DNA of 64,000 nucleotides from Lutjanus erythropterus (lineage: Eukaryota > Chordata > Actinopteri > Lutjaniformes > Lutjanidae), in contig CM034613.1 of NCBI GenBank assembly GCA_020091685.1, forward strand, positions 22,919,461 to 22,983,460. The letters run 5' to 3'. The notes below the pieces were generated by a model. That model saw only the letters and a program-made list of their open reading frames with translations. It was not told where the DNA came from and ran no database searches. Below are positions 11,118 to 53,759 of the stretch, piece by piece. Each line of letters starts with the position of its first letter. Position 1 is the stretch's first letter. Made by a program: the position numbers and the translations under genes.

Positions 11118-11165
<48 letters not shown>

Positions 11166-11545: not shown

Positions 11546-11569
11546 TGCCTCCGCTCTTACCTGTGTTAC

Positions 11570-11677: not shown

Positions 11678-11849
11678 GTAAGACTGCTCTTTACACGTGA
11701 TCACATTCAGTGCATCAGTCAAAATGTTGGTGGAATAGACCTTTAAATCCTGTGATTGTGATTGTTCTGAGAGTCTTTTTTTTGTGCATATGAAGAGAAT
11801 TTTCAAGTTGGGGAAAATACAACTTTATCTCTCATTATGTCCCACATTT

Positions 11850-14330: not shown

Positions 14331-14492
14331 TTGGTTTGGGTGTAAATAGCCACTTTGCCTATTTACACCCCATGTGCAAATAGCATTGTTTGCTACAGAC
14401 ACCTGGGTGCTTGTCTCTGCCATGTTAGGCTGTATGCATCCAGGTGTAAATAGCCACATATGCTGTTCCACCCCTTTGCAAATAGCAACTGC
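14180..14492. repeat. 104-base repeat with inverted 'GGTGTAAATAG' words
   Basis: 'ggtgtaaatagccac' occurs at 14339 and 14443, each followed about 40 bases later by 'tgcaaatagca'. 'ctatttacacc' at 14359 is its inverse. A decayed third unit is at 14185-14225. It lies just upstream of the first coding exon of gpha2. Confidence 0.7.
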
Positions 14493-14589
14493 CTTTTTTC
14501 TCCCTTTTGTCAAATCAATGTGTTCATTCTTTCTCTGGTCTTATACGGTAACATCTCACTTACTTTGACGCTCTGTTTCTATCCTCCAG

Positions 14590-14722
14590 GTCGCCATCCA
14601 GATGTCGCCGTGCGTGACCTCACATTTCTGCCTGCTGGTCATACCAGTGATGTCACTGCTGCTGTTCTTCTCTCCTATTGGTTGGAGCTACGATGGCGCC
14701 ACCCCGGGGTGTCACCTACACC
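14590..14722 (+). other. gpha2: gpha2 first coding exon
   Basis: The exon opens after a CTCCAG acceptor and carries 12 bases of 5' untranslated sequence. It then codes M1 to H40 plus one base of the P41 codon. It holds the signal peptide and the first knot cysteine (C37). The donor is C|GTAAGC. Confidence 0.93.
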
Positions 14723-16015
14723 GTAAGCGACACATTTGCAATTTTAAAATGTGCTGAATGACGTGCACGTTTTCACGATGAACTCAAAGCAGGGGAGACT
14801 AGGGACGGTTGCAACACAGGAGAGACCAGTTGAACTAGACCAACCAATTTGCATATATTAATTTTAGCGTGAACTACCCCTTTATATACCCCACTATGAC
14901 TAGTTTATGGTGATAAAATACTGTGGCGTGGTCTGTTTTGATAAGGCTGCTCAGCCATGACAGAACAGCATGTGCTAGCGAAACACATGCTAACACTGTC
15001 ACTGAGAAAGCAGCAAACCAGTTATTCAAGTCAAGGAAGTTTTGATTAATTTGTACGAAAGGTCAGGACATTTGGACAAAAATACACCTCATGAAAAAAT
15101 ACCAATACCATTTTGTTCTTTCAATTGCTGCAGCAGCAGATATCGATTGCGTCTTCTTGGTGGGAGAGGGTCTAACTGAGCACGTGCAGTATGAGTATCA
15201 TCATTCTAGCATGTTTCTGATTGGAGAAATAAAACTTGTTGCAACTGTCCCCTGTTGCAACCATCCCCAGTCTAGCCTAACAGGGTTTATGGGAAATGTG
15301 GTCTTGAGAACTGCAGCAAGTTTCTGATATTCACCTTGATATATGTCATTAGATTTAACAGATACACGTACCACACTTCACTTCCTCCACGCTCGTTCAT
15401 CCCTCTGTCTTCTCTCCCGCCTCCAGCCTTCAACGTGACCATCCGCAGCGACCGTCGCGGCACGTGCAAAGGCACCCACCTGGTCTACGCCTGCGTGGGC
15501 TACTGCGAGTCCAGCGCCTTCCCGTCCAGGTACTCCGTGCTGGTGGCCTCCAACTTCACCCACAACATCACCTCGGCCTCGCGATGCTGCACCATCAGCA
15601 AGGACGCTAAGGTGAGGGGACAGATCTGGTTAAAAAGAAAAAAAAACAGCCTCTGTGGCTTCATTAAGACAGGAAGAGTCAAAGATAAGATTTTTTTTTC
15701 AAATAAACTAGCTTTGGGAGTCTTATCTCAGGTTAGGACTTGATCCAGCATCACTTTTATGTCTGTTACCTAGCAACCAACACTACTTTTCTCACCCATC
15801 TTTCTAACCGTTGGGTTGTTTTTTAACATTTTTGAATTTTCATTTATGGGTGAACCATTTTATATATATATATTATATTTGTTCACGTCTTCTGGTTTGT
15901 CTTCCCTCAGGTCAAAGTTCGCCTGGACTGCCCTCGAGGTCGCCACCACGACGAAATAGAGATCCTGACAGCGAAGGCGTGTCGCTGCGACATGTGCCGC
16001 AAGTCCCGCTACTGA
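14602..16015 (+). CDS. gpha2: glycoprotein hormone alpha-2 (thyrostimulin alpha subunit)
   Basis: Three coding exons (14602-14722, 15427-15611, 15911-16015) join in phase at GT-AG sites into 136 codons; human GPHA2 has 129. The product is a secreted cystine-knot subunit that pairs with GPHB5 to form thyrostimulin, a ligand of the TSH receptor. Residues 1 to about 28 form a hydrophobic signal peptide. The mature chain has the ten family cysteines (37, 54, 63, 67, 94, 95, 109, 126, 128, 131) and the ending CDMCRKSRY, close to human CDMCRLSRY. N-glycosylation sequons are at N43 (NVT), N83 (NFT) and N87 (NIT); as I recall, human GPHA2 has counterparts of N43 and N87 but not N83. The ATG is the first in its exon, heads the signal peptide, and follows the acceptor by 12 bases. 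The gphb5 gene is convergent downstream. The chorionic alpha chain (CGA) is excluded by the GPHA2-specific sequence after GCHLHPFNVT. Confidence 0.96.
14723..15426. other. gpha2: gpha2 intron 2
   Basis: The intron begins GTAAGC and ends CCTCCAG. It contains 'gtgaactacccctt' near 14870, possibly a decayed element end, and no other feature. Confidence 0.8.
15427..15611 (+). other. gpha2: gpha2 second coding exon
   Basis: The exon follows the acceptor CCTCCAG, completes the P41 codon and codes to K102; the donor is AAG|GTGAGG. It holds six cysteines (54, 63, 67, 94, 95 and their spacing), the CESSAFPSRYSVL core, which is nearly identical to human, and all three N-glycosylation sequons. Its GC content is well above that of both flanking introns. 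Confidence 0.96.
15911..16015 (+). other. gpha2: gpha2 last coding exon
   Basis: The exon follows the acceptor CCCTCAG and begins at V103 in phase 0. It codes the final knot strands, with cysteines 109, 126, 128 and 131, and ends at TGA 16013-16015. The 3' untranslated region continues for about 1 kb. Confidence 0.95.
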
Positions 16016-17080
16016 CACATCGAGACATGCTGCTGCCAAACGTTCACCAGGATAAGAACCAGATCACACTTTAGTTAGCTGAGCGGCACAAAGTTTTGGT
16101 AAATGAGGTACAAGAGTTTCAGTGTCTGTGTCTATGTCGACTTGCTTTTAAGAAAATCCACTTGAATTTATTTAACTGAAAGCAAATTTACTGCCAAAAA
16201 AAAAGAGTTTCCTTCATTTGTGTTCTCAAAGAATAAAAGGAAGGTAGACAGAAAATGATCAAAAGGTCTCTGCAGACCTACATGGACTCTGAAATTATCT
16301 CCTAAATTCATTCAGGTGGACTAAATCCTGCTCTGGATCAGACAACCAGCTCCTTAAAATTAAAATGGGAAATTCACACTTTTTTATAAAATGTCTATAA
16401 AGATGTGCTGTTTGTGTAGGTGTGTGTGTGTGTGTGTGTCTGTGTGTGTGTGTGTCCTCGTGTAAAATGTGATGTAAGGGAGGTTTTCTAGAAAACTTGA
16501 TTGACACACATTTGTGTTAAAGCCTGTCTAAACCATTCTGTCACTCACACTTCAAACAGACTTTGCTTTCTGGCTTGGCAGACACTTGACTTTCTAAGCA
16601 GCTAGAAAAAAAAAAAAAAAAAAAAACAGAAAAAAAAGTCCCACTCCGCTTCGTACTTAGTGACTCAGTAGCAAGTGAAAGCACACGGAGGCTTCAGGAT
16701 TCCTATCGATCAAACTCACAAGCCCACGTTGACATTTTGAAATCTGCCAGAATGAATGAGGACATTACATTACATCATCTTCTCACTGACTTGTGTTCAA
16801 CAAAAACAGTCAGTCAGCCTTTGGAATCAGCATTAAAGGTCATACAAACAAGTAGTTTCATTCTTTGCCATAACCACTAAACACAAACAAAAGACCAAAG
16901 AATGTACAAAATTTATTTATATTTATGAATTTGAACTAAAGGACATTTTGTAAATAATATCTATTGATGAAACAAAAGAAGGTTGGAAATGTCAATGAAA
17001 TGAAAAGAGAACAAATGCACTGTATAGTTTGTGATGAAAACTGTATTTCAATAAATTTCTATTCTGCAACTGTAAAGCAA
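16016..17080 (+). other. gpha2: gpha2 3' untranslated region with polyadenylation signals
   Basis: AT-rich sequence without further exons follows the stop codon. An AATAAA hexamer lies at 16232-16237 and a second, in better context, at 17050-17055, followed by GT-rich sequence near 17090, as expected for a cleavage site. A (TG)n tract is at 16419-16455 and a poly-A tract at 16603-16626; the latter is genomic. Use of the distal signal would leave about 720 bases between this transcript's end and the gphb5 signal on the other strand. Confidence 0.6.
16603..16626. repeat. poly-A tract
   Basis: A run of A in the gpha2 3' untranslated region, probably a slippage repeat. Confidence 0.9.
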
Positions 17081-17127
17081 TTTATGTGGGTTTATGATCT
17101 TTTATTTCTTCTCACTTTGCACTTTGG

Positions 17128-17225
17128 TTTAGTTTTTTAGTCCACAAAACACTGTGAACACTCCAAACATAGAATGTCTCCATACTGCTCACCTGGTGTT
17201 ATCAAAGTCTCCTAAAGGACCAAAA
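17128..17225. mobile_element. internal fragment of family A element
   Basis: It contains 'tttagtccacaaaacactg', 'ctccatactgctcacctg' and 'caaagtctcctaaag', in the same order as inside the intact copy at 24664-25081. Confidence 0.55.
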
Positions 17226-17795
17226 TGTTGTGCAGCATGGTGAAAACTGGACCCCAAAGTGAGCTTCAGGTAGCAGTTCAGTTTGAAGTGGATTTATTTT
17301 CAGTGAAAGCGAGCAGGAGCAGGCTGAGCAGGGCTGGAAACTGGTAGACAGGCTGGAGAGAAAGGCAGGTGAGTGTGGATCTGAGGCACAGGGAAACAAA
17401 GCAAAGAAGCAGCAAGCAGGTCGTAGTGTAGAACCACAAGGTAGACTGAAAGATCTGGTGGAGACCCGGCTGCAGAGCCGCGGTACTTGTCCTGCTAGGG
17501 TTGATTACTGGATAAATTTCAGGTGTGTTGGCAGATTTGCAGCAGGACTGATGAGAGTCATGCCCAGAAACAGAGAGAGAGAGAGAGACGAACTAGGAAC
17601 CACAAGAAACACGAGGGGGAAAACAGCTGACACATGAGGAATGAGGAAAAGACAGACGATTACACAAAATGCCAAGTTGACCCAAAAAAAAAGTAATTAT
17701 TTTTTATTTATTTACACCATTCAGTCATTAATCAGTCCCTCCAGGGTTCCACAGGTCTTTTTTTTTACGGGGAGATTGTTGTGGTGCTTAACAAA

Positions 17796-18133
17796 ATATG
17801 CTTTATTTGTGCACTTGGGAGGTATATAATCTTTTTGGAGATTAAAACCCAATGAAAACAGCAAGAACAAAATTATAAATAAAATATAAAAGTGCACAGA
17901 GCAGTGATGTCAAAAACAAAGACAAACCTTTTCTTTTCAGTACCTGTGACAAAAAAAAAGAAATAAAAATACAAAAAATGAAATAAACACGGCGTTGGTT
18001 CACTGAGACCGACATGTACGATATTTGTGTGAGGAGCTTCTGTGCAGAATTGATGGAGGTTGGTTGAGTTTGCATGAATCATCAACATCGCAACTTCCTG
18101 GACGAACTGATTAAACATCAGCGGTTAAAAAGT
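17796..18133. repeat. copy 1 of segment duplicated around gphb5
   Basis: Shares with 21205-21500, in order: 'gctttatttgtgcacttggg', 'atctttttggagat', 'gtgcacagagcagtgatgtc', 'aacaaagacaaacctt', 'atcgcaacttcctgga', 'aactgattaaacatcagc'. Copy 1 has two extra stretches of about 22 and 50 bases. It falls in the presumed gphb5 3' untranslated region. Confidence 0.93.
17802..17807 (-). terminator. gphb5: candidate gphb5 polyadenylation signal
   Basis: TTTATT on the plus strand reads AATAAA on the gphb5 strand, about 550 bases after the stop codon. The same hexamer and its flanks recur at 21209-21214. Confidence 0.45.
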
Positions 18134-18323
18134 ACAGTCCTTTTGCAGACCTCCATCTGCAGAAAGACCTAATTTTGTTCCTGTATGTTTGGGATCTTTG
18201 TTCTGCTGACAGTTCTTGCCAGCAGCGCTGTCTCCCCCCTCAGAAACTCTCACACCGACTCAAATGTCTTGATTTCATCATTTTATTCAGAGTCGTTCAG
18301 ATCAGTAAAAAACCTCTTGATAA

Positions 18324-18358
<35 letters not shown>
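18324..18358 (-). repeat. gphb5: (TGA)11 microsatellite forming tandem in-frame stop codons of gphb5
   Basis: On the plus strand this is an uninterrupted (CAT)n run. Read on the gphb5 strand it is eleven TGA triplets in the same frame as the coding sequence, starting exactly at the stop codon. Length changes in whole units would not alter the protein. Confidence 0.97.
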
Positions 18359-18544
18359 GAAGGTCTCGCACTCTGTGTCCTGCGTGGAGCAGACGGCACA
18401 GTGGCACTGCAGGGCCACGGGGTAGTGGTAGAGAGGGGAGACGTCGGGCTGGCAGCCCGGCAGCCGGGCCGTCATGTGGCGGGTACGACTGTACGTACAC
18501 ACGCGGTGGTGGCGGTGGATGTACGGAGGATCCGGCACGGGTTT
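18356..18544 (-). other. gphb5: gphb5 second coding exon
   Basis: Codes residues 68-129, from KPVPDPPY to the end. The stop codon (18358-18356) is the first of eleven identical in-frame TGA triplets formed by a trinucleotide microsatellite that runs on into the 3' untranslated region. Confidence 0.95.
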
Positions 18545-19448
18545 CTGCAGGGTTCGACACAAACACACAAACATGCACACGGGTGGTTACTTTGCTCTCC
18601 ATTGAAAAGTACCTTCATAAAAAAAACTACAAAAAAATGTGATTCTTTACAGGAAACCTCTTTAAACCTAATATCTTCATCAAGGTTCTTTGAAAGACTC
18701 GAGATTCCATTAAGAACTCGTTTTAGAAGACAGAGTTCTTCAAGGATTGTTGAGATCACAGATGGTTCTACGTAGAACGTAGTCTATCTTTTGTTTGAGG
18801 TTTTACCAGGGAACCGGATTACTGTTCTCCTTATGGGAACAAGCAGAAGAATGGGTCTGGTTAGCACCTTTATTTCTAAGAGTGCAGCGTGACTGAGTCA
18901 GCTCTGTTGTTGCTGAGTCAGAGCTCTTTCTCCTTTTAAGACTTTGAATTTCTGACCCTAAATTTGGTTTTTCAATCACTGAAATCCGAGTTGCTGCAAA
19001 CTAGAACCAGTTCGGTAAAAGTTCAGCGACCCTCCCGGTTCTCATGACGATGGCACACGGGTACGAGCTGAGAAACGGGACGTCGGCCTTCTTGTGGTTT
19101 GGGTCGAGTCCTGGGTCATTAATCATTTATATGATGTCCTACGGTTCCGTTACAGAATGACGTAAGCTTGAAGAAACGGCACCAGTAGAGATGTTCTGTC
19201 ACTTTCCTCTGTGCGTGTGTGTGTGTGTGTGTGTGTCTGACTGTTACCTCCCAGGTGTGGCAGCGCCCCCAGCAGGCCTCTGTGGTGATGCGCAGTCCCT
19301 TGCAGCCGGGCTTCTGGGCCATGAAGGAGAATTCTCGCACCGCACAACCTCGGAAACCGTTGAGTGTGGTTGTCACGGCGACGCACACCGCAGCTGTCCC
19401 GGCAACCAGGAGGAGGAGGAAAGAGAGGGACAAAGGATGGAGATGCAT
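18356..19448 (-). CDS. gphb5: glycoprotein hormone beta-5 (thyrostimulin beta subunit)
   Basis: Two coding exons on the minus strand (19448-19248 and 18544-18356) join at GAG|GTAACA and CTGCAG|AAA into 129 codons; human GPHB5 has 130. It is the beta chain of thyrostimulin, secreted and cystine-knot folded. Residues 1 to about 23 form a leucine-rich signal peptide. The ten mature cysteines (35, 49, 59, 63, 83, 98, 114, 116, 119, 126) fit the family, which lacks the extra seat-belt pair of other beta chains. Motifs GCAVREF, PGCKGLRITTEACWGRC and HHRVCTY match human closely, and the chain ends CSTQDTECETF. Position 86, where human GPHB5 has the Asn of its sequon, is Ser here; the protein has a single Asn and no N-X-S/T sequon. 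An acceptor (TTCCAG) lies one base before the ATG, so an upstream untranslated exon is implied. It faces gpha2. Confidence 0.95.
18650..18890. repeat. 'GGTTCT/AGAACC' degenerate repeat in the gphb5 intron
   Basis: Repeated 'ggttct', 'aagaact' and 'gagttctt' words belong to the same type as the array at 60560-61205. Confidence 0.45.
19248..19448 (-). other. gphb5: gphb5 first coding exon
   Basis: Codes residues 1-67, from the signal peptide to CHTWE, in phase 0. The donor GTAACAG is followed within about 11 bases by a (CA)n tract on the transcript strand (19214-19236 on the plus strand). CA repeats near donors are known hnRNP L binding sites. Confidence 0.94.
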
Positions 19449-27243: not shown

Positions 27244-30200
27244 CTGGAGAGGCAGGACGAAGGAAAGAAAAAAGAGAATAGCGGGTTACAATGCTTTAAG
27301 ACGAGATGCAGAATATTGTGAGAGAGGCCTGTAAGCAAACTTCCAGATGAGTCTCGGGTAAATAAAATTGTTTTATCCCTAAAAAAACATCCTGGCTTCC
27401 AAATTAATAAGGAAAGCGTACTGCTACCTGACGCTCACAGTTTAACACAGTTTTTTTTTTTATTTTCTTATATTTTGCTGCATTCGGGACGCTTCTGAGC
27501 TTCCGCCCGTTTGGCAGGTTTGTGCAGACATGATAAAAATGTAGTGGCCAACAGTTAGGTCGCTGCCTCCATCTCTCTCCTCTGCTCTCTGTGTGTGAGA
27601 GCTGCAGAGAGAGATATACACACATACCCACACACGGGCAGAGCAGACTGAGCGGAGGTGTGGGCGAGTTCATTTGTGCTTTAGGACAAAACCACTGTTA
27701 CAAAATCAGAAAAATGTCATTTTATTTCTCTGACTCATTGCTTTGTTCCTGCTAACTGCCAACAAACAGCAACCAACAAATCCTGCATATCCTGCCTTTA
27801 ACTTGCACATAAAGGGGCCTTTTTAAGAAACTTTTACTTTTAATACTTTCAGTTCATTTTCCTAATATATATTTTTACTTAATGATATTTTCAGTGTGCA
27901 ACATTAACTTACCCTGGGTTCTTTGCTTCGTTGTCGTAGTTTGCAGTCTGTGGCCACTTGTGTTATAACTACTATAATTTCCCATGGAGCTTGGGACATT
28001 TGTTCCTTGAGTTTCTCCTTAAGGCAGCACTTCTCAGCAGGCTTGATGAAGTTTAATGAGGGTACTAATGGTGCCTGAGAGGATGCACTGCCTGAAAAGC
28101 TTAAGTCAGGGAACAAAAGTCTCTCGTGTGCAGTAAACGCCACAGATTACATGAACGATAACACAACTGCCTGCACACATACAGTGATACAGACCGTATA
28201 GTATTTTTTGATGTGTATACAGTAAATCTTACTGCCCAGAAGTAGGTTTGGTATAATTCAGCACCACCATACCTCTGCTGTAAAAAGGATCGTATCAAAA
28301 CCTGCGTTCACCAGCTGTATCTGGAGATTCGGCACAGAAGTGCTGAGCAGATGGATGAACCGTTCATCAATAAACTGTTCCAACACATGAGCCTCCCTTA
28401 AACCTCGCTTAAAACTGTATTTTTTTTTTTTTTTATTTCCGCTTGTGCACAGCTCGATCAAAAAAGACAGATCATGTAAATCAGTCGATTTGTTGATAAG
28501 CATATTCTTTATTTTAAGTAATACAAGGCCAGGATCTGACTCCAACTCCATAAAGACACAAGAATGATAATGATTTTCTCGTCTCATGTTCTGAAAAAAT
28601 GTTGAACTACTCCCTTAAGCTTTGTTTCCCAATGACATTCACTATCTTAAGTTTGAAAAACGGGGACTGAATAAGTGGAATCATGATGTGATCTGTGTTC
28701 AGAACATGACCTAAGCGATACATGCTTACAATGTGAAATATAACGTGATGCATAATGGAACAAATACCGTCTAAAACATGACATAAGAGTCTTCTATTTC
28801 TTCCTCTTGTTGTCACTGTTGTAGCCGGTGACACAAACTCACACACGCACACACACAGACACACACACACACAAAGGGGGTGAGTCACACTCACTTCTGT
28901 TTCTCCACTTTGTAGGAGGCAGTGAGGTCATCAAACAACTTGCTGTTCATCTCCATGAAGGTCTTCAGCACGTTGTAGATCAGAGACACGATGGTCCTGC
29001 AGGAGCAGAACGAGAAGGTCACAGGAGTCCCACAGTCCGGACAGGCGGCACCAACCTTTACTACTAAAAGAGCCATTTTTGGCCAAAAAAGATAAAACTA
29101 AATCTGTCCGGAGCCAGAACTTCTTTTTGGTATCCATAGCTAGCCTAGGGTGGCTTAGGACTAGTAAAATTTTGTAATCACGAGTCATTTTTAAGGTTAC
29201 TTAGAACTTTGAATGAATTATACAAAGAAATCGCAACCGTCTTTTGCAATTTTTACTTGCTCCTGCAATTTTCTTGCAAAAAAAAAAGACAGCCTGTGAA
29301 ATCCTGAAGGGACTGATTTACCATCCAAACAATGATAGAGCTTGAGGTTACACCCAAACTGACCAGAATCTAATTTGAAAATCTATGAGGTATGACTTGT
29401 ATTAATTTGTGTTTGTGTTTGTGAGCGACTAACTGGTTCCAGTGCTCCTTGGAGACTCTGTAGAGGGTGGCGAACACCAGCGGCAGGATGACTTGACAGT
29501 TCTCCTCTATCAGACTGAGGATGTATTCGTTGTTCCAGAAGTAAAGAGCCCGCTCCGCTACCTGAAACACACACACAGACAGAAGAGGTAAATTCGAGTG
29601 ATGTCTGCGCCCACAGTTTTTGACGTGTGTCTGCAGTTTCCCTCGGGCAGTTAGGTCACTGCTGATTGGCTCGTTAATCCCAAAGCAATTTCTTTTAACA
29701 TCAGAGGGAGGGAGGATTTTTGTAACCATTCTTAACTCATTTTGGGACCATAAACCAATATTACAATACATCTTTTTTAGATAATACCTCTTACAGCCCA
29801 GCGTGTTTCAAGTGTATCAAAAGTAACTAGGTACATTTACTCAAATACTGTATTTAAAGGGATAGTTCACCCAAAAATTAACATTCAGTCATTATCTACT
29901 CATCATCATGTGGACTGAGGGTGGAGTTTATTTTGTTTGTCTACAAAACACTGCTGGAGTTTCACAGGAAAACTGTTGCAGAATCTCCCAAAACATGGAA
30001 GTGAATGGTGAAGAAATGGACGACCCTGCCTCCCCCAAAAATATATATAAAATGCCTCCGTACTGCTCATTTTGTGTAACCCAAGACTCCTAAAGTCCTG
30101 GCCGTTTGCACACCGTCACACCACACACACACCCAGTGTGTCAGTATTTTGCTGTTAATACTTCTGTACTTTTACTTAAGTAACATTTTTAATTTTGTTT

Positions 30201-31089
30201 ATTTAATTTTTCTTAACTTTTACTTGAGTAAAGAATCTGATGGAGCTGTGGCGTTTACCTGGAAGTGAGGGCTGGAGATGCAGGCTGCGATCTGTTTGAA
30301 GAGCGGCTCCTGCACCCGGATGAACTGAGACGGTTCGATCACATCCAGGATCTCCTCAATCTCCCCCAGGAACATCACCTGAACACACACACACACACAC
30401 TTGTATAAGTGATACAGAAAGGGCAAAGAGGACACTCACTTGACTCAGTGAATAAAAAAATGTCAAGACGCTTGATTAGGAATCAAAAACAGAGATGCGA
30501 GTAACACAGAAGTCCTGCAAGATCATGAGAAAATCTTTCAGCGCTGACTAATGAGAGCAGCTGAGAAATATCAGTGTCTTTTTTTTAATTACCAGCTCCC
30601 TCACCTCTTTCTGCGTGCAGGTTTTTGGCCAGTACTTGAGCAGCCCTCTGATGATCTGCAGAGAAAATATGAAGCACATTAATATAAATAAACACTGCAG
30701 CCATTAGCTCAGCGGGGCTGCTGGCTGGCGTCCATCTGCACCATCTCCATTAACTCATATTCATACTCTAGTGCTAGTGCATTAAGAAATATGTCGTTAA
30801 ATTTGTACTGAGTCTGTACTGATGATGGTGAATGAAGAAGCAGGTTGTAGCTAATTCAGCCTCAGACCAGCAGAGCTGAGTTTTCAGTGATGAACTACTT
30901 ACAGGACTAACATTTTTTTTAGAGCTGTTTGATGGTCACATGATGGGCAATAATGTTTAATGAAGAAATGTTGTGAAGAAAACAGACTTACGTATTCAGT
31001 CACTGTAGCATCTTTCTCCATAAACTGCACCACACAGTAGGCCAGCTGAAAGGACAGGGAAGACATGGTTAGAACACACACCAACACAT

Positions 31090-31150
<61 letters not shown>

Positions 31151-34100
31151 AACACAAACACACACATTCCCTGAAGCTGTCAAGGAGACAAGGGGGATCT
31201 TAGCAGTTATCCCTCAGGATTAGACACTGCTAAAGATCGGAAAGACAAGTTTTCCAAGGGGAGGTGTGTATCACGTGTGTGTGTGTGTCGACTTCTACAT
31301 CAGCTCTCGTCCCCTCTTATATGATCTGCAATCATTTCCCATTATTCAGCGAGTGTGTGTGTGTGCGTACGTGCATGTGTGCATGTGTGTGTTTTGCGGT
31401 TGCCCCCTTCCACCCAGGCCGGTTGCCGTGGCGAGTGGGCACCGTGGCGACGGAGACTGTGTGTGCGTGTGTTTACTTCGGAAGGAGTGATGTCACACAC
31501 ACGAAGTCCCTTAAGGGCAATGTGAGATAGAGTTTAGACCTCTTGTCTCAGCCTCGCTGTCTTTCCTCCTTCTGTCCCATTTATCAGAAGTAACAAAGTA
31601 CAAATACTTTGTTAAAGTAGATTTTCACTTTTTCATTTTTTCATTTACCTAAATATTTATTTTTCTGACAAATTTTTACTTTGCTCCCTTCATTTCAACA
31701 CATATATCCGTACTTTCTACTGCTCACAACAGACTTGTTATTTTTCTTTTAATTCATTTTAAGGGAATTATTGATTAATTTTATTTTGCGTCATTGTGCA
31801 CTACTTTCCCAACATCCAGAATGATGACAACCTAAATTCTCAAATTCTCAGTGCATATCATGCATGACAGACGTTACAAGACAAAAATGATGTAAAAGTT
31901 GTAGCAGTGCGAAAACAACATAAAAGACATAACAAAACAAAAAAGACATGAAAGACTTTACAAGACAAAAACAACGTAAAAGATGTAACAAAATTTTAAA
32001 GACGTAACAAGACAAAAACAACATATAAGACCTAACAAAATCAACATAAAAGATGTAACAAAATGAAAAAGATCTTACAGACATAACAAGATGAAAACAA
32101 CATAAAAAAACGTAAAAGACATAACAAGAAGAAAATGATGTAACAAGATGTTAAAGACACAACAGGAAGAAAACAATTTAAAGGATGCAACAAAACAATA
32201 AAGACGTAAAAGACGAAACAAGATGAAAACAACATAAAAGATAAACCAAGACATAAAAGACATAACAAGGAAACAACCAACAGTACATAACAAGATGTAA
32301 CAAGGCGTAACAACATGTTAACGACATAATAAGATGAAAACTATGTAAAAAATGTAACAAGACCTGAAAGACGTATCATGATGAAAACAAAGTAAAAGAC
32401 GTAACAAGGAGTAACAAGGCAAAATAAGGCGTGAGGTGTAGGTACGACGAACACAACGAAACAAAACAGTAGAGATGTCCTTTAGAATGATATTCTTTAC
32501 TAGTACAGTACATTTCAGAGCCTGTACTTTTTCACTTTTACTTGAGTAAAGAAGTTAAATCAGTACTTCTACTTCTATTTCTACTGTACTCCTGCTCAAG
32601 TAAAGAATTTGTGTACGTTTGCCACCTCTTCTATTTATACTCTTGCCTTGTACAAATCACGACTGTACTGGTCCTCAGTTCAAATCATTAAAATAAAAGT
32701 GTGCTGCATTGTCCAATTTTAAAGCTGGAGGTTATGTACTGTCACATCGTTGATGGTTGTTCTCTGTCTTTTTTGTGAGACAAGCGGTTTTTACTTTCTT
32801 TCTTCTTTTTTTGTCGTTTCTTTCTTTGTCTCATTCCTGACCCGTGCTTCCATTGTCTGTCTCTCCGCCTGTCTGGCTTTCACATCTTCCACAGCTTTCA
32901 TCTTTTTGTTCCCGTCTAATCCCTTTTTTTCTTGTTATGTACGGTGCGACTGTCTTGTTTGTCTTCTCCTCTCGCTCCATCCTTAACGTTCCCTGTCCCT
33001 CGCTCGCACCACAACATGGTTACAGAGGCAAAGAGGGAAAGAGGGAGCGGAGAGTAAAAACAAAAAAAAGGCACCGGTGAAAGCAGGGATGTAAAGCTTG
33101 AATAAAAAGAAAAGCTGGAAAAAAAGATGGGGATTAAAATAAAGGTGCTGATCGGTCAAACTGTTTAAAGTATTAGCGAGGCATTAGAGAAACTGCCTGG
33201 GGTAAATATGATGTTGGATTCTGTTGTCAGGCCAGGCTTTGTGGGTTCAGCAGGCCGTTGTTAGGCTAAGGATTATGGACACTGTAGTCTTTTTAAAGGC
33301 TGAGATCTTACCAATATTGATTTGTCAAGGTGACAGGTCAAATAAGGGTCTATTTTTGGGGATGTAGTCACTCCAGAGAGCTCTGACGCCGGCTTCCTGC
33401 CTGTAAATTTGTTGCGACCTGCACATCAAAAAGTAGCCCTTTCCACACTTTTACAGCTCTTCCAATTGCTTTTCCAGGTACAAACGCGGTTATTCACAAG
33501 CTGTGAATCATGACGACTTATTCACGGTGTCTGAAAGTCGAACTGAAATTTGAATCCTCCTCACTTTTTGTGAAGGGAGGTTTTTGTGCTGCATGTTTAT
33601 CACAGAAGGATAACAAGGATTGTATGGTCGGTTGTACGCCTCCGCCATCCATGTCTGTCCAGACTGGTATTAAGTATATTTTTGACATAAACGATGTAAT
33701 CAATACATTGACGGTGAATAACTTCCAATGAGAAACACGCTGTCTTCACTTAAAGACTATTTTTACAGAGGAAGTGACATTTTGATGTCACAGGGAAGCT
33801 GACATTTGACCTTTTTGTTTATAAAATTTCATCACTTAGTCCTTTCATCAAATTAGATGTACATGTGAAAGCAATTGAATACTAGAGTTGTGGCCAAAAA
33901 TGTGTTTGTGAAGTCACAGTGACCTTTGACCACCAAATTCTAAACCATGAGTCCAAGCGGACTGAGCCCAATTCAAATTATCAAGTTTTGAAAAGTTTTA
34001 CCAACTACTGATCTATTGTTGAGATAATTTACTTTTCCTCTTTAGATAAACTTTTAAAAGAGAGATAAAATTTTATAAATAAGGTTTGCAGCTCACCAAT

Positions 34101-37100
34101 TTTTTAATTTTTAAAAACTTTCTAAAACTCAAAGATTCAAGTTTATCTAAAGAAGAAAAGTAAATTATCTCAACTAAAGATTATAGGTCAGCAAAACTTT
34201 TTTTAAAGTCTATTTCAAAACTTAAGAGTTTGAGTTGGGCTCAAAACTCAAACATGAGTAATATAGGGATGTGCTCAGATATTCAGGCAACTGTTGCCAT
34301 CATCAGCTGGTTAACTGAAGTGATATTAAAAATAAATACTGTGCCGTATTTCAGGTCTGCCCAAAAAAATCCTGAACACAGAAATTGTTTACTACTCTAA
34401 CTTAGCACTTTAACCGTGCTTGAAAAGTTGAACCTGTCAAGGCCCAATGCCGACAAAATTCTGTCCGAAACCGACCCGAACCCGACCCTCATTAGCATAT
34501 TTCAGCCTGAACCCGACTACAGCTCAACATTTTTCTCAATCCACTTCCCTCAATGCACCAGACAGTGGGAGTTTTCAGTGACAGGAACAATACATACAGG
34601 AATAGTGCAGCCCAAACCCAAAGTGAGCCCGACCCGAACCCACCAGGTCCCGTCTGGTTCGGGCACAGATCTCAAGCCCTGGTCTAACTCCATTATTCAA
34701 TACTACATAGCTCTCAATGTTCTCACTTGTTTTCAGTAACTATTTTCTAAAATGTGAAAAACGCCCTTTTTCCTTTACACAGAGTCTGATATGAGCTCAT
34801 AATGTAAAAGCACTGCATTTGCTTTTTTTAACATTTGAAACCATGACATGTAACCATGTTGTGGCTACAGAATATAGCTCTAACAGCTGCTATTACAACT
34901 CAGTAACATGGATATAAATGAGAAAACCCTTCACAGGAACAGGAAGGATGATTCAAATGTGTTTCACAGTGTTGAGAAACCTTTAAGATGAATCAAAGGT
35001 GCTGCTGTGATATTATTCTTTGATATTCAGATCCAGAACTGGGTCACTCCTTCACGGCCACACCTACCGAGCGCAAAAAGTGCTGTCCACTCACACAGTG
35101 TCCCCCGTGACCCTGTCAAACCGAGCGTGTGTGTGTGTTTTAGTGTGTGAATTATGTATGTGTGTGAACCACAGGGAGAGAGACGGGGAGGAGAAATGTA
35201 GGGCACAGTGATGCTCGCACACACATGCACACACACACACACACACACACACACCTCCAACCAGTTTGTGGAGAACAAACTGTACCTTCTGCATAATCAA
35301 ATAATGTGTGACACAAATAAAATGCACACACACAATGGACCGGCTGCCATCTGTGTCACCAAATATTATGATAACCCAAACACACATACTCAGACACAAA
35401 CACACACACTCACACAGACCAAAGAAACCAAAGGCACACACACACACACACACACACACTCTGAGATGAGTGCATATCTCTGCAGTATTATCTGCGACTC
35501 AACTCTGCCTCCTAGTGGTGCGTCTGACACACTGCAAGAATTTCTAACCACCATCAAAAGACTCCCTTCATCCTCGGTTTTGATCTTACACGTGCATTTA
35601 TTCAAGGTAACTGCTGCAGAGAATTTAAGAGGATAATCAAGGTTTTGGTGACAGTTTGGTGATAATGAGAGGTTTATAACTGCTAGAGAAAAATGCAGGG
35701 TAGAAGGTGCAGCAGAGAAGCCAGAAGATAAACTACAACCCACTTTGATGCTATTAGAGTTAGGGGAGTAGGGTCTCTAAAAGCTACAGCAAAGCGTCCC
35801 TCAGTCAGGAGAAAACCTGGAAAAATTACCACGTATTTTGGGGATTGATATGATAGTTTTAGTCTGGCAAGATCGATGTTTCAGTGGATTAAACACCCTG
35901 CCAAATAGAAATCATAATTCAGAGGTTTTTACTTAAAAATGTAAATATAAGGGCTGGGCAATAAACAGTGGAAACTTCTTATACTCATCATGTCTGTCTT
36001 GGTCAAATTGATCACTACAAGATGATGATTATTATTTCTCGTGTAGATTACCATCTCATTGACACATACATGAATATAAAGTAATGAAATGGACAACTTT
36101 GCTATTTTTATGTCACCAAAGGCCAAGTTAAAGGGGGCTTTATATGACCAGACTACAAAAGGTAACCTAAGTTTCACACACAAAGTTTCACTGCTGCATC
36201 CAACTGGCTCGTTTTGAGCAGTTTGTCATAAACTTTGAGGAGTTTTTCATTGAAAGAAAATTACTTTTCTTTGTCCCATCATGATTTCAATGTGCATGCA
36301 ACAGAGGCAGCAGCAGTTACAGTCATTTAAAAATTCTTTTTCTATATGTTGTCATGTATAAAAAAGATTATATTTGACACGGTATAAGTGTTGTCTCCTC
36401 CTATCAAACATCTCATTGTGTTAGTATTTACCAATTAAAGATATAAAATACTGATATCGAGGTATTTGGTCAAAAATATTGTGATATCTGATTTTGTCCA
36501 TATTGCTGAGCCCGAGTGAAAATGATGTCCAGAACAGTGGCACAAAACTTCAGCAAAAATCATCAGTTTTGGCCTCCAAAATCCATAACACACAGAGAGA
36601 AGCAGCTGTAAGGTACAACAGACGATCAAATAAACATCTGTCGCCTTCATGTGGCCATAGACATGGCGTCAATAAATCAAAAACTGAAGTCAAACACAGT
36701 CTAAGTTGCAGGAACACGTCACTGACCTGTGCGTGGAAGATGGAAAGGGACTTTGCCGTGTGTAGCGGGATGAGAACCCGAACCAGGAACTGCTTGTGTT
36801 CGGCCTTCAAGGGCAGGGCGAAGCCGTTTATGATGCTGGAGAGGACAAGGAGACAGTTAAAGTTACGGTTAAATACTTTCACTCTGTGGCACGTGAACTT
36901 TCTTTTTAAATCACATTTTGCTTTCTTCCTGGCAAAAACAACAAGGTGGTGATTTTCAGTCCCGTCACGTCGTCTGTCTTTCAGCTAAAATATAGTCAGA
37001 AAATAATGAGAGAGGTGATTAGATTAAAGCGTCATCTCATGCGTACTTTCAATGTCAAACAATCTTTCCATTATTGTTTCACTTGATCTTTTAAAGGAGC

Positions 37101-40100
37101 GATGTGCAAAATATGGCCAGGTAAGGTAACTCGGAGGGTTGCAAATTTTTTCCTGACTTTCTGTCTTTTGCAGTTTTTTTTTCCTGCAAATGGCTCCACC
37201 AGACAAAACAAAGTCAGCTGAGGTGCAATTACTGCCATGTCTATTGGCCTGTTTGTGATCAGATCACCTGATTGGCTACTAAAATGCAGATGCATACTGA
37301 AGTACGAGTAAAAGTACAGACTTAAAAATCTACTCAAAAAAGTACAAGTACCCAAAAAAAAAACTTTATTATAGTAATTAGTTCCTTCCACCCCGCCTAT
37401 GAAACATATAAAGACATAAAATCTCTATATATTGAACACATATAACTGAATATCAGCTAACACATAGAGCTCACTCATAAAAAGAATCTATTTTATATAT
37501 CAGATCTTTATTTGATTTATAGATCGATCACCTCTAGCTGGAAACATTTGAGATAATGTAAGTACACAACTTTACAAAATTTAATGCAGAAATGTTCCAC
37601 ATTAGAGCTTTAAATAAAAATTCTGGCCATATCTCACACATTACACCTTAAAAACTCACTGCAGTTTCCGAAAACCTCAAACTAACACAATCAAATTGTT
37701 TGGTTTTCACTACCAACAGAGAAGAACAGCAAATTTTCACATTTGAGAAGAAATAATTTGGCATTTTTGCTTGATGAATGACTCATTGATGAGCAAAAAC
37801 TGATAAATATTCTGTCAGTGGACCAACTGATAACTGGCGCAGGAGCAGAGATGATCCTCTGTGGTTTTCTCACAGTACAACTCAGTGAAACAATGACGAC
37901 ACCACGTATACTTTTTGAAGTCCACCGTTCACATCTGTGCGAGCGTGTGCATTCGTCTGTGCGGCGGAGGAGTCTATTCTTGTACCGTGTCCATTTCCAA
38001 GCGACTGGACAAACGCGTGGTCTGCTGCGTTCACTGACTGACACAAGAGGTAGTTCGGCCCGCGGGGAGGAAGGAGAGTATGAACGGCGGAGGAGTGGGA
38101 ACTAAACTTGGAAACACTTATTTAGCAACACTGAGCTGTTTGTCTGTTTGTTTGTCTCTGCATCAGTCTGTCCGTCTGTCTGCCTTCATTTTCTAATATC
38201 ATCTTTGTTTCATAGAACATTCCTTCAATGATACTTCCCTCCCGCTGCTCCTCTGATCTTTCTTTTTCTGCCTCCTTCCTTCTCACCCCTTTTTTTCTGA
38301 CTCCCTCTGTCCTCTTCCTCTCTCCATCTCTCTCTCTCTTTCCCTGTCTCCATGTGTGGGAGGAGCTATAAATACCTCTGTTACCACCAACATGAATACA
38401 AACCTCTCTCTCCTCTCCTGCTCTCCCTCCTCCTTCCTCCACTTCTGACTCACCGTTCACTCACTCAGTCATCCTCCCTCCATCCCTCATCCCTCCATCC
38501 CCCCCTCTGTCACCCTACATTCATCCTCTCTTCTACGTCCCTCTCTTTCCTCTACATTAACCCGAATTTCGCAAATCTCAGAAGTCACCGTCCCTTTTTT
38601 ATTTCACTTTTTTTGACCAGGTAAAGTGGTGGTTAAGGTTTCAAATTTATCCTTTATGTTGGAAAAGACATTTACTTTGCCATACAGGAACTTTTCAGAA
38701 TTCTAAAGAAAACAAAAGTTGACTTGCTTAAAGCACCGTAACTGTTAAAAATATAAATTTCGATGAGCTAACATTTTGGTAATTTAGTTTTTGTCTCGCC
38801 AAGGTAGATGAAAAAATTGAGTTCAGTTATGGAGAATAAAAACAGCTGAACTAATCCTGCTAAAAGTGTGGTCAAGTTACTTTTAAATCACTTATTTAAA
38901 TGTAATAAAGTGATTTGATCTCGAGTTATTAAAACAAACAGTAGATGGGAAGCTGAAAGAACCAGTTTTGTTTGTTGATACAGTGTTTTCCCTTTGACCA
39001 TATTCCCTGAGGTTTTTCCAAAGGTAAACGTCAAGGATTTTTCTGTGGTAAAATAACATGTTCCAAGTAATTACATCATGAAATCTTTACCCCTCTCTTA
39101 TCACCTTCAGATTTTCTGGAGTCAATGCTCTCTGTCACTGTAGGGCAGAATAGCGTCTTACTTTTGATAAAATATTCTAGCAGTCAGCCGGCACTGAGAC
39201 AAACAGCTGCAGTCTTTCTAATCTCTGAATCTGGTCCACTTTTCAGCTCTCTTTGCTTTCTTCTATGTTTAACATCAATAAAGATTATTTAAAGGCACTT
39301 CTGTCTTATTAGTGTGGAATAATGAAAGACTAAGACGGAGGGCACAAGCTCCATTCCCGCCACCAGAATGCCTCTGAGAGAAATTAATATTTATTGACTT
39401 GGATTTGTTTGTTTTGCTTTCTGCTTTCTCATCATCCATCTTCTTTTGTTTATTCTCTTTCTCCTTCCATCTATCCATGCCTCAATTTTTCAGAACTATC
39501 ATCATGTCTCTTTGTGTTTGCCGAAGTCTGTCAATGTTATATCATTGCTAGTTTCTCTGTCTCAAACTCGAGTAAGGACGGATAAAGCTCTGTAGTGTGT
39601 TTACATCTTATATGGGAGAAACATTTATTTGCTTTCTCTCCATGAATCACTGCCTGTGTTGTCAACTCTCTTACAAAGAAAGTAGCTAGCAGTAGCTCCA
39701 AAAGCTGCTCAAGGTTGCCAGATGATGCTGTACACTCATTTGCATATCGATGACGTCATTGTACAGTCATTTGCATTAAGTTATATAAAGCTTAGCGCTT
39801 GTGTTGGTTGCAGCGAGGGAGAGATCACCTGCCATATAAAAGATAGACGGTGAAATCTAAAGCCAAACAATCACAAACTCACCGCAGGGACTTCATTCAT
39901 TTATGCAAGAACAGGCTGTTTATATTTCTACATTTATTTTCTTTTTCTTTTATAGGTTTCCTTCTTTCCGTAGCATTACTATGACTCCATATTGGAACAC
40001 CTGAGATCTAGAGAACAAACTATTTACAAGCTTAAAACAACTAATTAAATATCAGCAATCTACAGGAACATCCTAATCCAGAGATCCGCAGAGAAAGACA

Positions 40101-43100
40101 GAGAGAGAAGCTCAAACCAATTAGATGACTGGTGGAGACCTCTACTTATGTTGTCAAAATGAGCGTGCACCTTTTCGATGACGTCGGCTGTAAAAAACTC
40201 ACTATAGCTGAACTCTTTCTCCTGCAGCGAGCGGCATCCTTCTGCCAGCCAAACTCCACGCTGACTGACTACACACGGCGCAACAGTAGAGAAAGAAATC
40301 CCGTCGCTGTTGGCAGAATAAGTCACTAAATTTGTTGCTAGTCGCTGTAATAAAGTCGCTAAGAGAATCTGAAACATTGCTTAGCAACACTTAGCATAAT
40401 TATCTCTGCAGCATTTTGATTTTTTTGCTCTGAGATGACCAAACACTATCCAACATGAGCTAGCTAACTCTATTAAGACTTGTTCCTCACTTTAGAGGAG
40501 CAATATGTAGATATCGCGCGTGCAAATATGAGTACAGCCGTCCAAATAGTGAGTGCAGGACGTGCGCAACAACGTAAATTGACAATACGAGACCTACACT
40601 GCGAGTTGATCAGCTGCTTCTAACTGTCAGTTGTCTGTCAATGTTAAGTTAAACAGGTTGGCTCTGAAAATACACACTCTGGACTTTCGGTGACTGCCTG
40701 TCTCTCTGCCCGCCGGACTCCATCAATATATGGCTCAATTCAACCGTTATAAACATCTCCGGCATCTACAAGGTTATTAATCATTTCTCACGACTCATAA
40801 ACAGACACTTAATCATTCAGCGAACATTCAGGCTGCAGCGTTTATGTTGGAGAAGCGAGTATTTCAATTTTCTTTGATCTCTGATGGCATATCATGGTAA
40901 TTTTATAATTTATTGTAAATATATTGCATATTTCTCCTATAATGCTGAGTAATGATCCAGGCTCAGGCAAGCTACTGCAGTCTGTCTCTTCAAACCCAGC
41001 TCTCTTTTCAAGTCCTCCACTTCTATGAAAGATTCTAATTATCTAAAGGCATTTCTGTCTTAATAGCGTTGAATAATGAATCACAAAAGGGCACAATAGA
41101 ACATCCTTGAGAGAAAAGCTCATACAATTTCTTTATTTGTGAGGGAAAGATTCCAATGCACAAGCGCTAACAAGGCCACATGCTACCTACTTAGCAGAGC
41201 AAGCTAACTGCTGTAGCCTGGGTGTGATGATCATTACTCAGCATCAAAGTGAAGAGCCAGTATTCGAGGCACAAATTAGCTGGTTAATTTAGAAAAAGCT
41301 CCTCAGAGAAAGACAAAAACAACTGAGCCAACGGCGGCTAGCTAACAATGCTAACACTGAGCACACAGCTCAGCCTAGCTAGTTGGTCTATTCATGAATC
41401 GAGAAGAAAACAGCTTTAGAGGGGATGATAGGCACGTTTCTTCAATTTGGAGAGAGGAAGGCTAGCCGTTTCCCCTTCCTTCAGTCTTTATGCTAAGCTA
41501 AGCTAGCCACACCCTGTCCCCAGCTAAGAAAAGAGCAGATATCAGGTTGATATTGATCTTTTTTATCTCACAAAGCAACCAAGTGTGTTTCCCAACTGCA
41601 ACAATTAATCGATTCATCGATTATTAATAGTTTATTAAATCAATCGCCAGCTGCTTTGAAAATGTATTAATCGGTTTGAGTAATTTTCTAAGAAAACAAT
41701 CAAAATTCTCTGATATCAGCTTCTTAAATGTGAATATTTTCTGGTTCCTTTACTCCTCTCCAACAGTAAACTGAATATTTTTGAGTTGCAGACAAAAGAA
41801 GATATATGAGGACGTCATCGTGACCATTTTCTGAGATTTTAAAAACAAGAAAATGAAATGAAAATAATCGTTAGTTGCAGCCCTGCTTCCCAACACGCTG
41901 AAGTATTACTAACATAACATCATTTTGCTTACAGAGACAGTGAGAAAAACAAACCAGATAATATCACCAGCCTTGTCTGTATTCATCCTCCATTTTCTCT
42001 CTGTCTTTCTTTTTATTACTGTCATCTTTCCATTCTTGTTCCCATTGATTTGTGTACGAGCGGAGGCAGAGAGCAAGACATGTTTGTTTATCAGCTTGGC
42101 TTCCTTCCTTGCTCTCTCTTCATTTCTATCTTCCTCATATTTCACGAACTGGCCTCAGAGACAAAGCAACAAACTATGCAACCCTCTGAGTCATTTCTCT
42201 TTATGTCTTTAACCCCCACCTTCTTGTTTCTGTGTCTCCTTCCTGTCACCTCCCACCTTCGCTCATTTCTCACTCTGCCGGGCTTCGCACACAGATGTGT
42301 TTAACTGATAATAAAGACTGAGCGATGACGATAAATGAAAAATAAATGCGTATTGGACTTCGTTGCAGTAGTGGTTATGCTTCGTCGCCATTTTTTTGTA
42401 GTTGCTCAATTCACTGGGTTACCAGCTGTCTCATTAATAGGAGCAGCTGGCCAAATACAGTATGTGTATATGTAAGAGTGTGTGTGTGTGTGTGTGTGTT
42501 CACAATGAGCTCAAAATGCATTCATCAGGCCATAATATACTACGAAGTCAGTTTTTCCTCTGGAGCAGCAGTTTATTAAAATGTGTGTGTGTGTGTGTGT
42601 GGATACGAACCTGCCGAGGATTTCCAGAAGCTCCGCAACTCCGTTGAAGTGCTCAGTTTCGTATATGAACCTGGAGATTAGACACACACACACACACACA
42701 CACACAGTGACTTTTAATGTTTCATCAGTACACTTAAGTGGGTTCTGCCTGATGAGCTGAGGTTCTGCCCAGAATCATTTGTTACAGAAAAAAACCTGTT
42801 GAAGAGTTTGTAAAGGTTTTTTTTTGGTAAGACTAGGGGAACCATAAAGAATCCTTTTCACCCAAACATCTTTGTAGAACCTTCAGAAGACAAGAGGTCA
42901 CCGGTGAAACTCTTCTAAAATATATTTTTAGATCTCCCTGCACTGAGAATCAAAATAAGTTAGCAGAACTCAAAAAAATTGAAGCAAACAGTTGCCACAA
43001 TTTTTCTTCAAGTTCATAAACTCAAAAGTTGAAGCTTTTCAAAGCTTAAATATATCGAGTTAGTGTGACATGTACTCTTCGATTACAGTTAAATTAAAAT

Positions 43101-46100
43101 TATTGATTTAGCCAACTAAAATAGTTTCAATAAATGAAACTCAGAAATTTCATTCACATTTTAAGTATAAAAACACGTTATTTCATTTTCAATAAAGTCA
43201 GTATCATGTTTATTAATCTCTTAATGTATTTGTGTTTTAGGGACCTTATTTCCCTCATTCATCAAAAATTATGAGTTTAATAAACACAAAACAAAGAAAT
43301 TAGTTAGTAGAAATTAGTTTTTAAGTTAGTAGAAGCTCTATACAAAATCAAGTTTTCAAAACTCACTACACATAATTAATTTGAGCATTTGGTTTTATTC
43401 CCAGGGTTTCAAAATGAAACCCTTAGAATATAAAAGTGTTCTCTATAAAATCACCTGTGTGCACCCTTGTTAGCGCCAGACAGAACCACCAGAGAGTGTT
43501 CTGGATGGAACCATTACACCATAGAATCGTTCTCTTTAGGACCTGATAGGCCTTTTCCACCAACATGGAACCAGCCCTGTTCTGGTTCAGGTGTCTAATT
43601 TTGAACCATTCAGAGCATTTCATTTTAAATTTGCTCAGTACACAAAAGGTTGGTTCCCTGCTGGAATTATGGATTATAATGGTTCTGCTCAAAACTGGTG
43701 GAAACACTGGCTGGTTCCCTAGATAGCACCAAGGTTCCGAGAATCTTGAACAGTACTGCTTCAAGAACCTAGGATAATTTGGTGGAAAACAGCCTTCACA
43801 GGGGGTTCTGAGTGGAACCTTTGGCAAATAGTTTTAGGAATCATCCTATAGATTGGGTTCAAGATAGAAAAAAGAAAACAAAAAAAAGGGGTTCTCCTAT
43901 GATGACCAGCTGAACAAAAGCAACTCAAAGAGGGACTGCATCTCTTGAAATAGTAAAACATCATGTGTTAGCTTCCTGTAAAACTACCAATGCATTAAAT
44001 TTCCTGGCAGGGATCGAGGATTGATCAATATTGTGACGTACCATGTCTGAAATAAAACTCTGTTACCTCTGTGATGAGATCTCGTGAGAGAAAAACACAG
44101 CACAATCCCAGTTTAGCAGATTTATGCTCACACTGTATCTTTTATCTGTCAAAATACTGAACCCAGTTAACCGAGACAGGAGCAGAGGAGTGTGCTGCAG
44201 CGCTGCAGCTCTGCCCTGCTTGAATTATATCGCAAATACAACAATTCAGCCGCACCTGGTGAAGGGAGAAGATGAAACATGATTGTACATCACAGCGCCC
44301 TTGTTAGTCAGAGCTGCTTAACCAATCATCTGAGGAGATTTGTGTCACTACACAATGATGTAAACTCTCAGGATAGATCCAGGATGGCTGATTCAGTGCG
44401 TGTTGTGACTGCAAATGTGCACAGTCATGTTTGTGAGCGCCTTGTTCCTGTTTGTCTGCATGTGTGGAAGAGTACTGAGGCAGAAAATACTCTGTGTAAC
44501 ATCTGCCTCTCCTTAAACACTGGTACTACTTGTCACAATAATATAATAATACTACTTGTCTCCTGTCCTCTGTGTTGATTCTTATGCCACATCCACATAA
44601 TAATATTATACAGACTTTTATTACAAGCAGGAATGTGGGAAAACTATTAATGTCAGCCAAGAACTGTAGGTGTAGCTCAGAGTCAGCAAAAGAACTACTA
44701 TCAGCTAATTGTTGGCCAAATAGCTGCAAAGTCTCTGCCACTGGCAGTTACACAATGAAAAAAAATCTAATATTAAAGGGATAGGAAAAGGGATTATTTG
44801 GAGTTATTATGAGGTCAGTAGATGATGGACAAACCCCTGTCTGGAGAAGCAGAGAGGTTTCTGATGGGAAACCTCCATTATATAAGCCAAATAACACTCT
44901 ACCTAAACTCTAAACCAGTGTTTCCCAAGATTTTTTCCTTTCCAATTTTTAAAAAGTGACAAACCATCACGACCCAACTCCCAATAAACCTTAATAAATC
45001 CTGCAACAGAGTTTATTCATGTATAAATGAATGTTCCTGACTGTTTTTACTGCCATTTTTGCATCAACCATCAAATCAATATAAATCTTAAAGTTGCAGA
45101 TTTTGCTCCATTGTATTTTATTTATTTGGGGACCCAATGTTTGGGAATGACCGCTGTAAACCAAACTCCATAGGTGAAATCACAAATTTTACCTCGCAGA
45201 ACACAGGAGTTGCTGCTTCAATTGATTTGTTTGTTTGTGTTATTGTGTGACTTTGGTGACTCTTTAAAACACAGGAGTCACACAATAACACAAACAAACT
45301 CACATATCAAGGCAGCGGTAGACCAGTAACTCCCTTGTTATGGTTGGTTTGGAGCGAGTGATATTATATTATATAACAGCGGGTTCCCATCAGAAAAGGC
45401 TGTCTGACGACAAGGTAAAAAGATGAAAATATTCTAAATATTGTGTACACTTAAACAACAACAACAGCGCCTGGCTTCCTACACTGGTACTCCTGCTGCT
45501 TCTCCAACTTCAAAAAACCTGAACTATCCCTTTAATTTCCAAGCATCTTGTGTGACTTTGAAGAAGGTAACCACATAACGTGCGAGTGCTTCTAAATTAA
45601 AATAACAGGGGCTTTTTTTCCATTCTTCCCATACTGATAACTTGGCTTGAATGCAACTTTTGTCAGGAAATAACATCCCAACCTAACAATAAATATACAT
45701 CCTGACTTCTTTTTTAAGCAGTGAAAAAAATGCTCCTGTGTGTTTTGTGCTGTAAAATCATCATTATTTGTTCCAGTGACGCACCAAGGTAAAGCAAAAA
45801 ATGCACTGCAGGGGTCATAAACACAGCTGCTCTCCCTGCTGATGGTCTTTGTTGGCAAATGTTTGATTTATTGATGTTAAAACGCTATAAATAGCACCTT
45901 TAAATCCTGTGCATCGGATTGGCGGTAGGTAGTCTGTACCTGAGGAAGATGTTGTTGATCTGTTTGCGGATGTAGGCTCGGAGGCCCAGTAGTTTTCCAT
46001 AGACACGGTGCAGGATGGTCTTTAGGTACTCCCTCTCCCTGGGGTCCTCGCTGTCGAACAGCTCCAGGAGCTACACAGACACGCACACACACATATGATA

Positions 46101-52802: not shown

Positions 52803-53759
52803 CTGGATGATTGAGAGGCAGGAAGACAGAAAAAGAGAGAGAAGAGAAATGTTAGACATCGAGGTTAAAGGACAGGGGAAAAAAAAGGCCAAATCCGATG
52901 GGTTTCCTGAAAGGCGCTTTGTGTTTGGTAGTGAATGGTTTGACAAAGTGAGAGTGTTGGAGTATACAGAGATGTTTTCTACATGCTAGATCTTCCCTCA
53001 AAGGTAATGAGGGAAAGAGCAGTCTATTACTCTACAAACACATTTGTACACACACACACAGGTGCTTCCATCCATCCACACACACACACACGTCCACACA
53101 CACACCTTCCTCCAGAGGGCTGTGTTGTATCTCAGTCCTATTACCTGTCAGATTCGCTCTCAGGACCTGTTCGTCACAATGAAACAACCTGCTGCCGGCC
53201 GTCAGATTAAAACGCCGCGCATCCAAAAACACCACTTTTCACAGATGTGGAGAGAGAGTGGCTGATACCCACGGATTACTGAGGACGTACAGTCGGTCTT
53301 AAATTGATTACACAGACCCGAGGGGAGGTGTGAAACTTAGCGGCTCAGCCTGGAGAGCATTATGCAAAAAGTAAAGGAAAAAAAGCAGCAAACACCAAAG
53401 TGTAGAGTTACAGGCTTTGACAGCAGCCAAATGGGAATTCTTGGTTCTTTTTCTGAGTAACCTGATGATTGATGACTCAATAGCTAAATATAGCAGTGAA
53501 ATATCCCCATGTTAGATTCCTATATGTATGTGTATGAGATGTATGCAAGGTTTGGTATAATGTGCTGTCTATATTAAGATAAATGATAGAATACATTTAT
53601 TGCAAAGGTTTTTTGCATGATTTCCAGCAGGATGTCCAGAATATATTATGTAATGATATATGATTTTCTGTAATTGCTGTGGAAATTAAGAAAGGTTGAG
53701 CCTGAAAGACATCACACACCTTCTTTAATTATGTGTTTAAAGCTGTAAACCCGGTGCTA

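Follow-up and report, generated by a model that had tools for sequence, protein, structure and literature searches.

The gpha2–gphb5 pair of Lutjanus erythropterus is very probably the known teleost gpa2–gpb5a pair, with a second gphb5 on another chromosome

Introduction

The closest described counterpart of the locus analysed here is the gpa2–gpb5 neighbourhood of teleost genomes. According to PMC3280201 (2011), gpa2 has stayed next to one of the two gpb5 genes of teleosts, tetrapods lost gpb5a and zebrafish gpb5b is the orthologue of human GPB5. PMC6752823 (2019) describes GpB5a as 'always immediately adjacent to GpA2', with GpB5b placed on another chromosome or scaffold, and finds the same neighbourhood in other teleosts and coelacanth, as well as the loss of GpB5a in several lineages. 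In the tree of that paper, coelacanth GpB5a falls inside the GpB5b clade, and the dating of the forms to 1R/2R is therefore in conflict. PMC8522476 (2021) repeats the teleost gpa2–gpb5a linkage and the view of an ancestral neighbourhood. Adjacent alpha and beta genes are also described in amphioxus and invertebrates (PMC3280201), from which vertebrates differ in having the beta gene duplicated elsewhere.

The linkage is already described in fish, and Lutjanus erythropterus is one more example. We are highly confident that the window (the whole 64-kb stretch analysed, C23:22919461-22983460) holds the known teleost gpa2–gpb5a pair and that a second gene on C15, gphb5b, is the counterpart of human GPHB5, an assignment made by adjacency and chromosomal setting rather than by a tree.

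Structure of the linked genes

The sequence-only reading had described a plus-strand gpha2 and a minus-strand gphb5 that converge, with 2.3 kb between the stop codons. This arrangement was confirmed: both genes are intact and lie tail to tail, 2,340 bp apart (Table 1). Of the boundaries drawn in that reading, position 14590 is the first base after an acceptor AG (14588-14589), 12 bp before the gpha2 ATG, and 19448 is the gphb5 ATG.

Table 1. Coordinates of the features discussed (window positions, except where C15 is given)
Feature	Position	Strand	Remark
gpha2 coding exon 1 (signal peptide)	14602..14722	+	ATG 14602; exon proper starts at 14590 after acceptor AG
gpha2 coding exon 2	15427..15611	+	
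gpha2 coding exon 3	15911..16015	+	ends with TGA
Intergenic stretch, stop to stop	16016..18355	.	2,340 bp
gphb5a coding exon 2	18356..18544	-	ends with TGA
gphb5a coding exon 1	19248..19448	-	ATG 19448; phase-0 donor, same place as in the C15 copy
B56 regulatory subunit gene, most likely ppp2r5b	29421..52806	-	span of Pfam-recognised exons
gphb5b coding exons	C15:29623077-29623105, 29624973-29625168, 29629100-29629291		assembled from three exons

The gpha2 gene encodes 136 amino acids in three coding exons, with GT-AG introns and an intact frame on the plus strand. Its product matches the Pfam families Hormone_6 (PF00236, E 4.2e-6), Cys_knot (PF00007, 1.4e-5) and DAN (3.5e-5), each above the cut-off, and carries ten cysteines from position 37 on, two further cysteines in the signal region, and three sequons, at 43, 83 and 87. 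The alpha/cystine-knot domain, the ten core cysteines and the N-glycan sites together identify the thyrostimulin alpha subunit GPHA2. A PDB search with the alpha query returned no solved relative at E 0.001.

The gphb5 gene of the window encodes 129 amino acids in two coding exons split by a phase-0 intron, with an intact frame on the minus strand. It matches Cys_knot (PF00007) at E 1.5e-17, above the cut-off, and its solved relatives in the PDB search (eight chains) are LH, FSH, CG and TSH beta subunits. Ten cysteines lie from position 35 on, with one more at 22, and the chain stops three residues past the last of them. The cystine knot, the ten core cysteines, the short C-terminus without seatbelt cysteines and the conserved intron are those of a thyrostimulin beta subunit; that the gene adjoins gpha2 directly, with a separate gphb5b elsewhere, marks it as the linked fish form, GPHB5a. 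Agreement between the Pfam matches and the open frames across matching splice sites places the identities and frames of both genes far beyond chance. Moreover, an acceptor-like AG stands just ahead of the ATG in both first coding exons, so that gpha2 and gphb5a each likely have a 5′ non-coding exon.

Tilapia GpB5a, at 129 residues, is as long as the GPHB5a of the window with its ten core cysteines, and tilapia GpB5b has 139 residues versus 138 for the C15 product (PMC6752823). The 22-nt tilapia GpB5a reverse primer has one mismatch in the window, at 18356, and the GpB5b reverse primer has mismatches at 4 of 26 positions on C15. For the GpB5a and GpB5b forward primers, the fit at the start codons (six mismatches each) does not exceed that at other sites of the scanned stretches.

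A second gphb5 elsewhere in the genome

The genome (938 Mb, 444 contigs) was searched at exon level with only the best candidates scored, and within that limit it contains one gpha2 and two gphb5 genes. Eight matches with E no higher than 1 came from the window gphb5: gphb5a itself accounts for two, and another two, at E 1.8e-19 and 1.1e-17, marked a second gphb5 on C15, unlinked to the window. The remaining four were weaker (E 1.8e-9 on C2, 3.1e-7 on C16, 0.083 on C10 and 0.228 on C22); those on C2 and C16, read by eye, appear to be pituitary-hormone beta subunits. The C15 gene, gphb5b, encodes 138 amino acids, has the phase-0 intron in common with gphb5a, and is identical to GPHB5a at 63 of 96 core residues. 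Between the two genes dN is 0.28 and dS about 1.5 (near saturation), which indicates that both copies have long been constrained, a comparison that does not date any later relaxation.

The gpha2 search returned seven matches, comprising three to gpha2 itself, one on C15 at E 0.0018 and three at E >0.4. The C15 match, 35% identical and the sole other one at E <0.1, was considered as a second gpha2 and rejected; a peptide read at this site matches PF00236 at E 1.2e-30, and the gene is read as cga.

Chromosomal settings and origin of the two loci

In human, KCNH5, GPHB5, PPP2R5E, SYNE2 and ESR2 lie together on 14q23, and BAD, PPP2R5B and GPHA2 lie on 11q13. Around gphb5b on C15 we found an ORF for a KCNH C-terminus at ~30 kb (KCNH5, 7yid, is its best PDB match, E 2.3e-79), a CH-domain ORF ~29 kb away that is read as syne2, and an ERbeta_N exon ~194 kb away (the weaker of two genome matches, the stronger being on C14). 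A B56 gene at ~299 kb from gphb5b is closest to epsilon among the PDB isoforms (572.8 bits vs 496.2 for alpha). The window also has a B56 gene, with its nearest Pfam-recognised exon ~10 kb from the gphb5a ATG. This gene is not epsilon-like (alpha 498.1 vs epsilon 489.3 bits, with no beta isoform among the PDB entries compared), and we take its sequence to fit PPP2R5B. Beyond the left edge of the window, at ~15 kb, there is a BAD exon (PF10514, E 1.4e-19). The human GPHB5 setting was not found around the window, where B56 and ERbeta_N were sought genome-wide and KCNH5 and SYNE by eye in the ORFs within 40 kb.

The C15 gphb5b thus fits the setting of human GPHB5 (chromosome 14) and the window pair that of human GPHA2 (chromosome 11). 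PMC3280201 places the GPA2 gene set at chr 11: 61-67 Mb. A retained ancestral gpa–gpb neighbourhood, as proposed in the sequence-only reading, is borne out, and the same view is taken in PMC3280201, PMC6752823 and PMC8522476. By contrast, the proposal that the window gphb5 is the counterpart of the separated mammalian GPHB5 did not survive the genome-wide search for a second, unlinked gphb5, which found the C15 copy in the human GPHB5 setting. The separation of the mammalian genes is therefore best read as loss of gphb5a. According to these papers human has no gphb5a, and the gphb5 of the window is a paralogue of human GPHB5. Mammalian GPHB5 does not have its orthologue in the 'gphb5' that adjoins gpha2 in fish, a point of importance for naming and for comparisons of expression between fish and mammals.

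These observations suggest the following history, its timing taken from the papers or from our own reading. Ancestral chordate gpa and gpb genes would have been neighbours, and the early vertebrate genome duplications would have given several gpa/gpb copies. One copy would have kept gpha2 and gphb5a (the window), another only gphb5b (C15, and human GPHB5), and a third cga. Subsequent loss of gphb5a in tetrapods would account for GPHA2 and GPHB5 lying on different mammalian chromosomes. The B56 search gave 46 matches at six loci. Three of these loci are used here; of the other three, C14 carries two and C16 one. The third gene used (C15:15510687-15519217) lies ~0.52 Mb from cga (C15:14988331), so that cga, gphb5b and the gpha2–gphb5a pair alike have a B56 gene nearby, in agreement with a common origin of these settings.

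The assignment also bears on a published association. In PMC10853659, a steelhead GPHB5 beside ER-beta is associated with spawning phenology; to judge from this neighbour, it probably corresponds to gphb5b rather than to the gene of the window.

Partner of GPHA2 and alternative readings

The two fish beta subunits differ in glycosylation. GPHB5a of the window has no N-glycosylation sequon. In PMC6752823, tilapia and coelacanth GpB5a keep the motif and the GpB5a of the other species studied there lacks it. GPHB5b of C15 has one sequon (NET). In PMC12691860, removal of the single GPB5 N-glycan stopped expression of the beta subunit in cells and medium. Some invertebrate subunits also lack sequons, which the authors of PMC8522476 treat as a question rather than an answer, and a missing glycan is therefore no proof against pairing. 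Because the sequon is kept in GPHB5b and absent from GPHB5a, GPHB5b would be the likelier partner of GPHA2 than the linked GPHB5a. The gpha2 and gphb5 genes are spliced separately and each code for a cystine-knot subunit whose N-terminus is signal-like; GPHA2, most likely paired with GPHB5b, would act on a TSH-type receptor. The heterodimer of the two linked products in the sequence-only reading is a hypothesis, and its beta subunit would be the one that has no N-glycosylation site. The linked GPHB5a, an intact beta subunit without a sequon, may on our reading be either specialised or fading. We tentatively suggest, as a possibility well short of probable, that the linkage has outlived the partnership: GPHA2 would work with the unlinked, glycosylated GPHB5b, and GPHB5a, having lost its N-glycan, would have another role, as a monomer, a homodimer or an antagonist. 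If so, the decoupled pair argues against co-expression as the reason for the kept linkage. The lost glycan site on GPHB5a hints, in a way that can be tested, that the working thyrostimulin pair is not the linked one.

It is very improbable that the window holds a single ancestral pair, orthologous to both mammalian genes and kept linked for co-expression of the subunits. The linkage is real, and PMC8522476 suggests that constraint held the pair together in early vertebrates. However, a second, unlinked gphb5 occupies the human GPHB5 setting on C15, the linked beta subunit is the one without an N-glycan site, and GpB5a has been lost in several lineages (PMC6752823). Tilapia provides a further objection: GpB5a was cloned from pituitary cDNA, yet GpA2 could not be cloned from tissues or juveniles, and one pituitary RNA dataset contained no GpA2 reads (PMC6752823). 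This result speaks against strict co-expression of gpha2 and gphb5a, without being proof.

The tilapia cDNA also weighs against decay of gphb5a, that is, an intact frame whose product is no longer made or secreted, which we regard as unlikely. Decay would account for the missing sequon and agrees with PMC6752823, in which zebrafish GpB5a is called a likely pseudogene and GpB5a lacking the motif is suggested to go untranslated or unsecreted, tilapia and coelacanth being the exceptions. Private changes in exon 2, scored against two other beta subunits of the same genome, lean the same way (gphb5a vs gphb5b, 3 v 1 strict and 8 v 4 loose) but are too few to weigh. The frame, the splice sites and all ten core cysteines of gphb5a are nevertheless intact, and dN remains far below dS between the two copies. 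A wrong join of two loci in the assembly is a negligible prospect. No sign of it was found; the window contains no N letters, both genes lie on one 28.3 Mb contig, and the same neighbourhood recurs in the teleosts and coelacanth of PMC6752823. The known teleost gpa2–gpb5a pair, with gphb5b on C15, is accordingly the reading that we retain.

Transcript ends and flanking sequence

The available text of PMC3280201, PMC4079206, PMC12691860 and PMC8522476 contains no statement of a tail-to-tail or opposite orientation for the gpa2–gpb5 pair. In the interval between the two genes, the first plus-strand AATAAA stands at 16232, 217 nt beyond the gpha2 stop, and the first minus-strand AATAAA at 18287, 69 nt beyond the gphb5a stop; if these nearest hexamers were used, the two transcripts would end ~2 kb apart. 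The scan was for AATAAA/ATTAAA matches only, and with nine on the plus and seven on the minus strand in 2,340 bp these are too frequent to be more than weak evidence. The overlapping 3′ ends and shared regulation raised as possibilities in the sequence-only reading gained no support from the analysis. ARAGORN gave no match, Rfam gave none at the gathering threshold, and a Pfam scan of window positions 1-14401, run on two of six reading frames, was also negative.

Some features of the surrounding chromosomes were also recorded. The presence of cga and its B56 neighbour on the same chromosome as gphb5b means that two of the duplicated settings are now on C15. C14 holds the other ERbeta_N match (C14:31553067) and two B56 genes (14.6 Mb and 22.9 Mb), and may represent the copy of the C15 settings that arose by the fish-specific duplication; the genome search gave no gphb5 match on C14, in agreement with PMC8522476. 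The last exon of the B56 gene in the window, read by eye, would be the ORF at 27009-27263, and an ORF near 80.2-80.5 kb, outside the window, is presumably its first exon, although the peptide of this ORF has no Pfam match. The ppp2r5b-like gene is very spread out, covering >50 kb from the presumed first exon (by eye) to the last, whereas on C16 the B56 matches span ~4 kb. Finally, left of the window, between bad and gpha2, the minus strand carries two consecutive sets of aldo-keto reductase exons (window coordinates -9361 to -3814; Pfam was run on two of the peptides), and their identical or very similar peptides make a recent tandem duplication likely.
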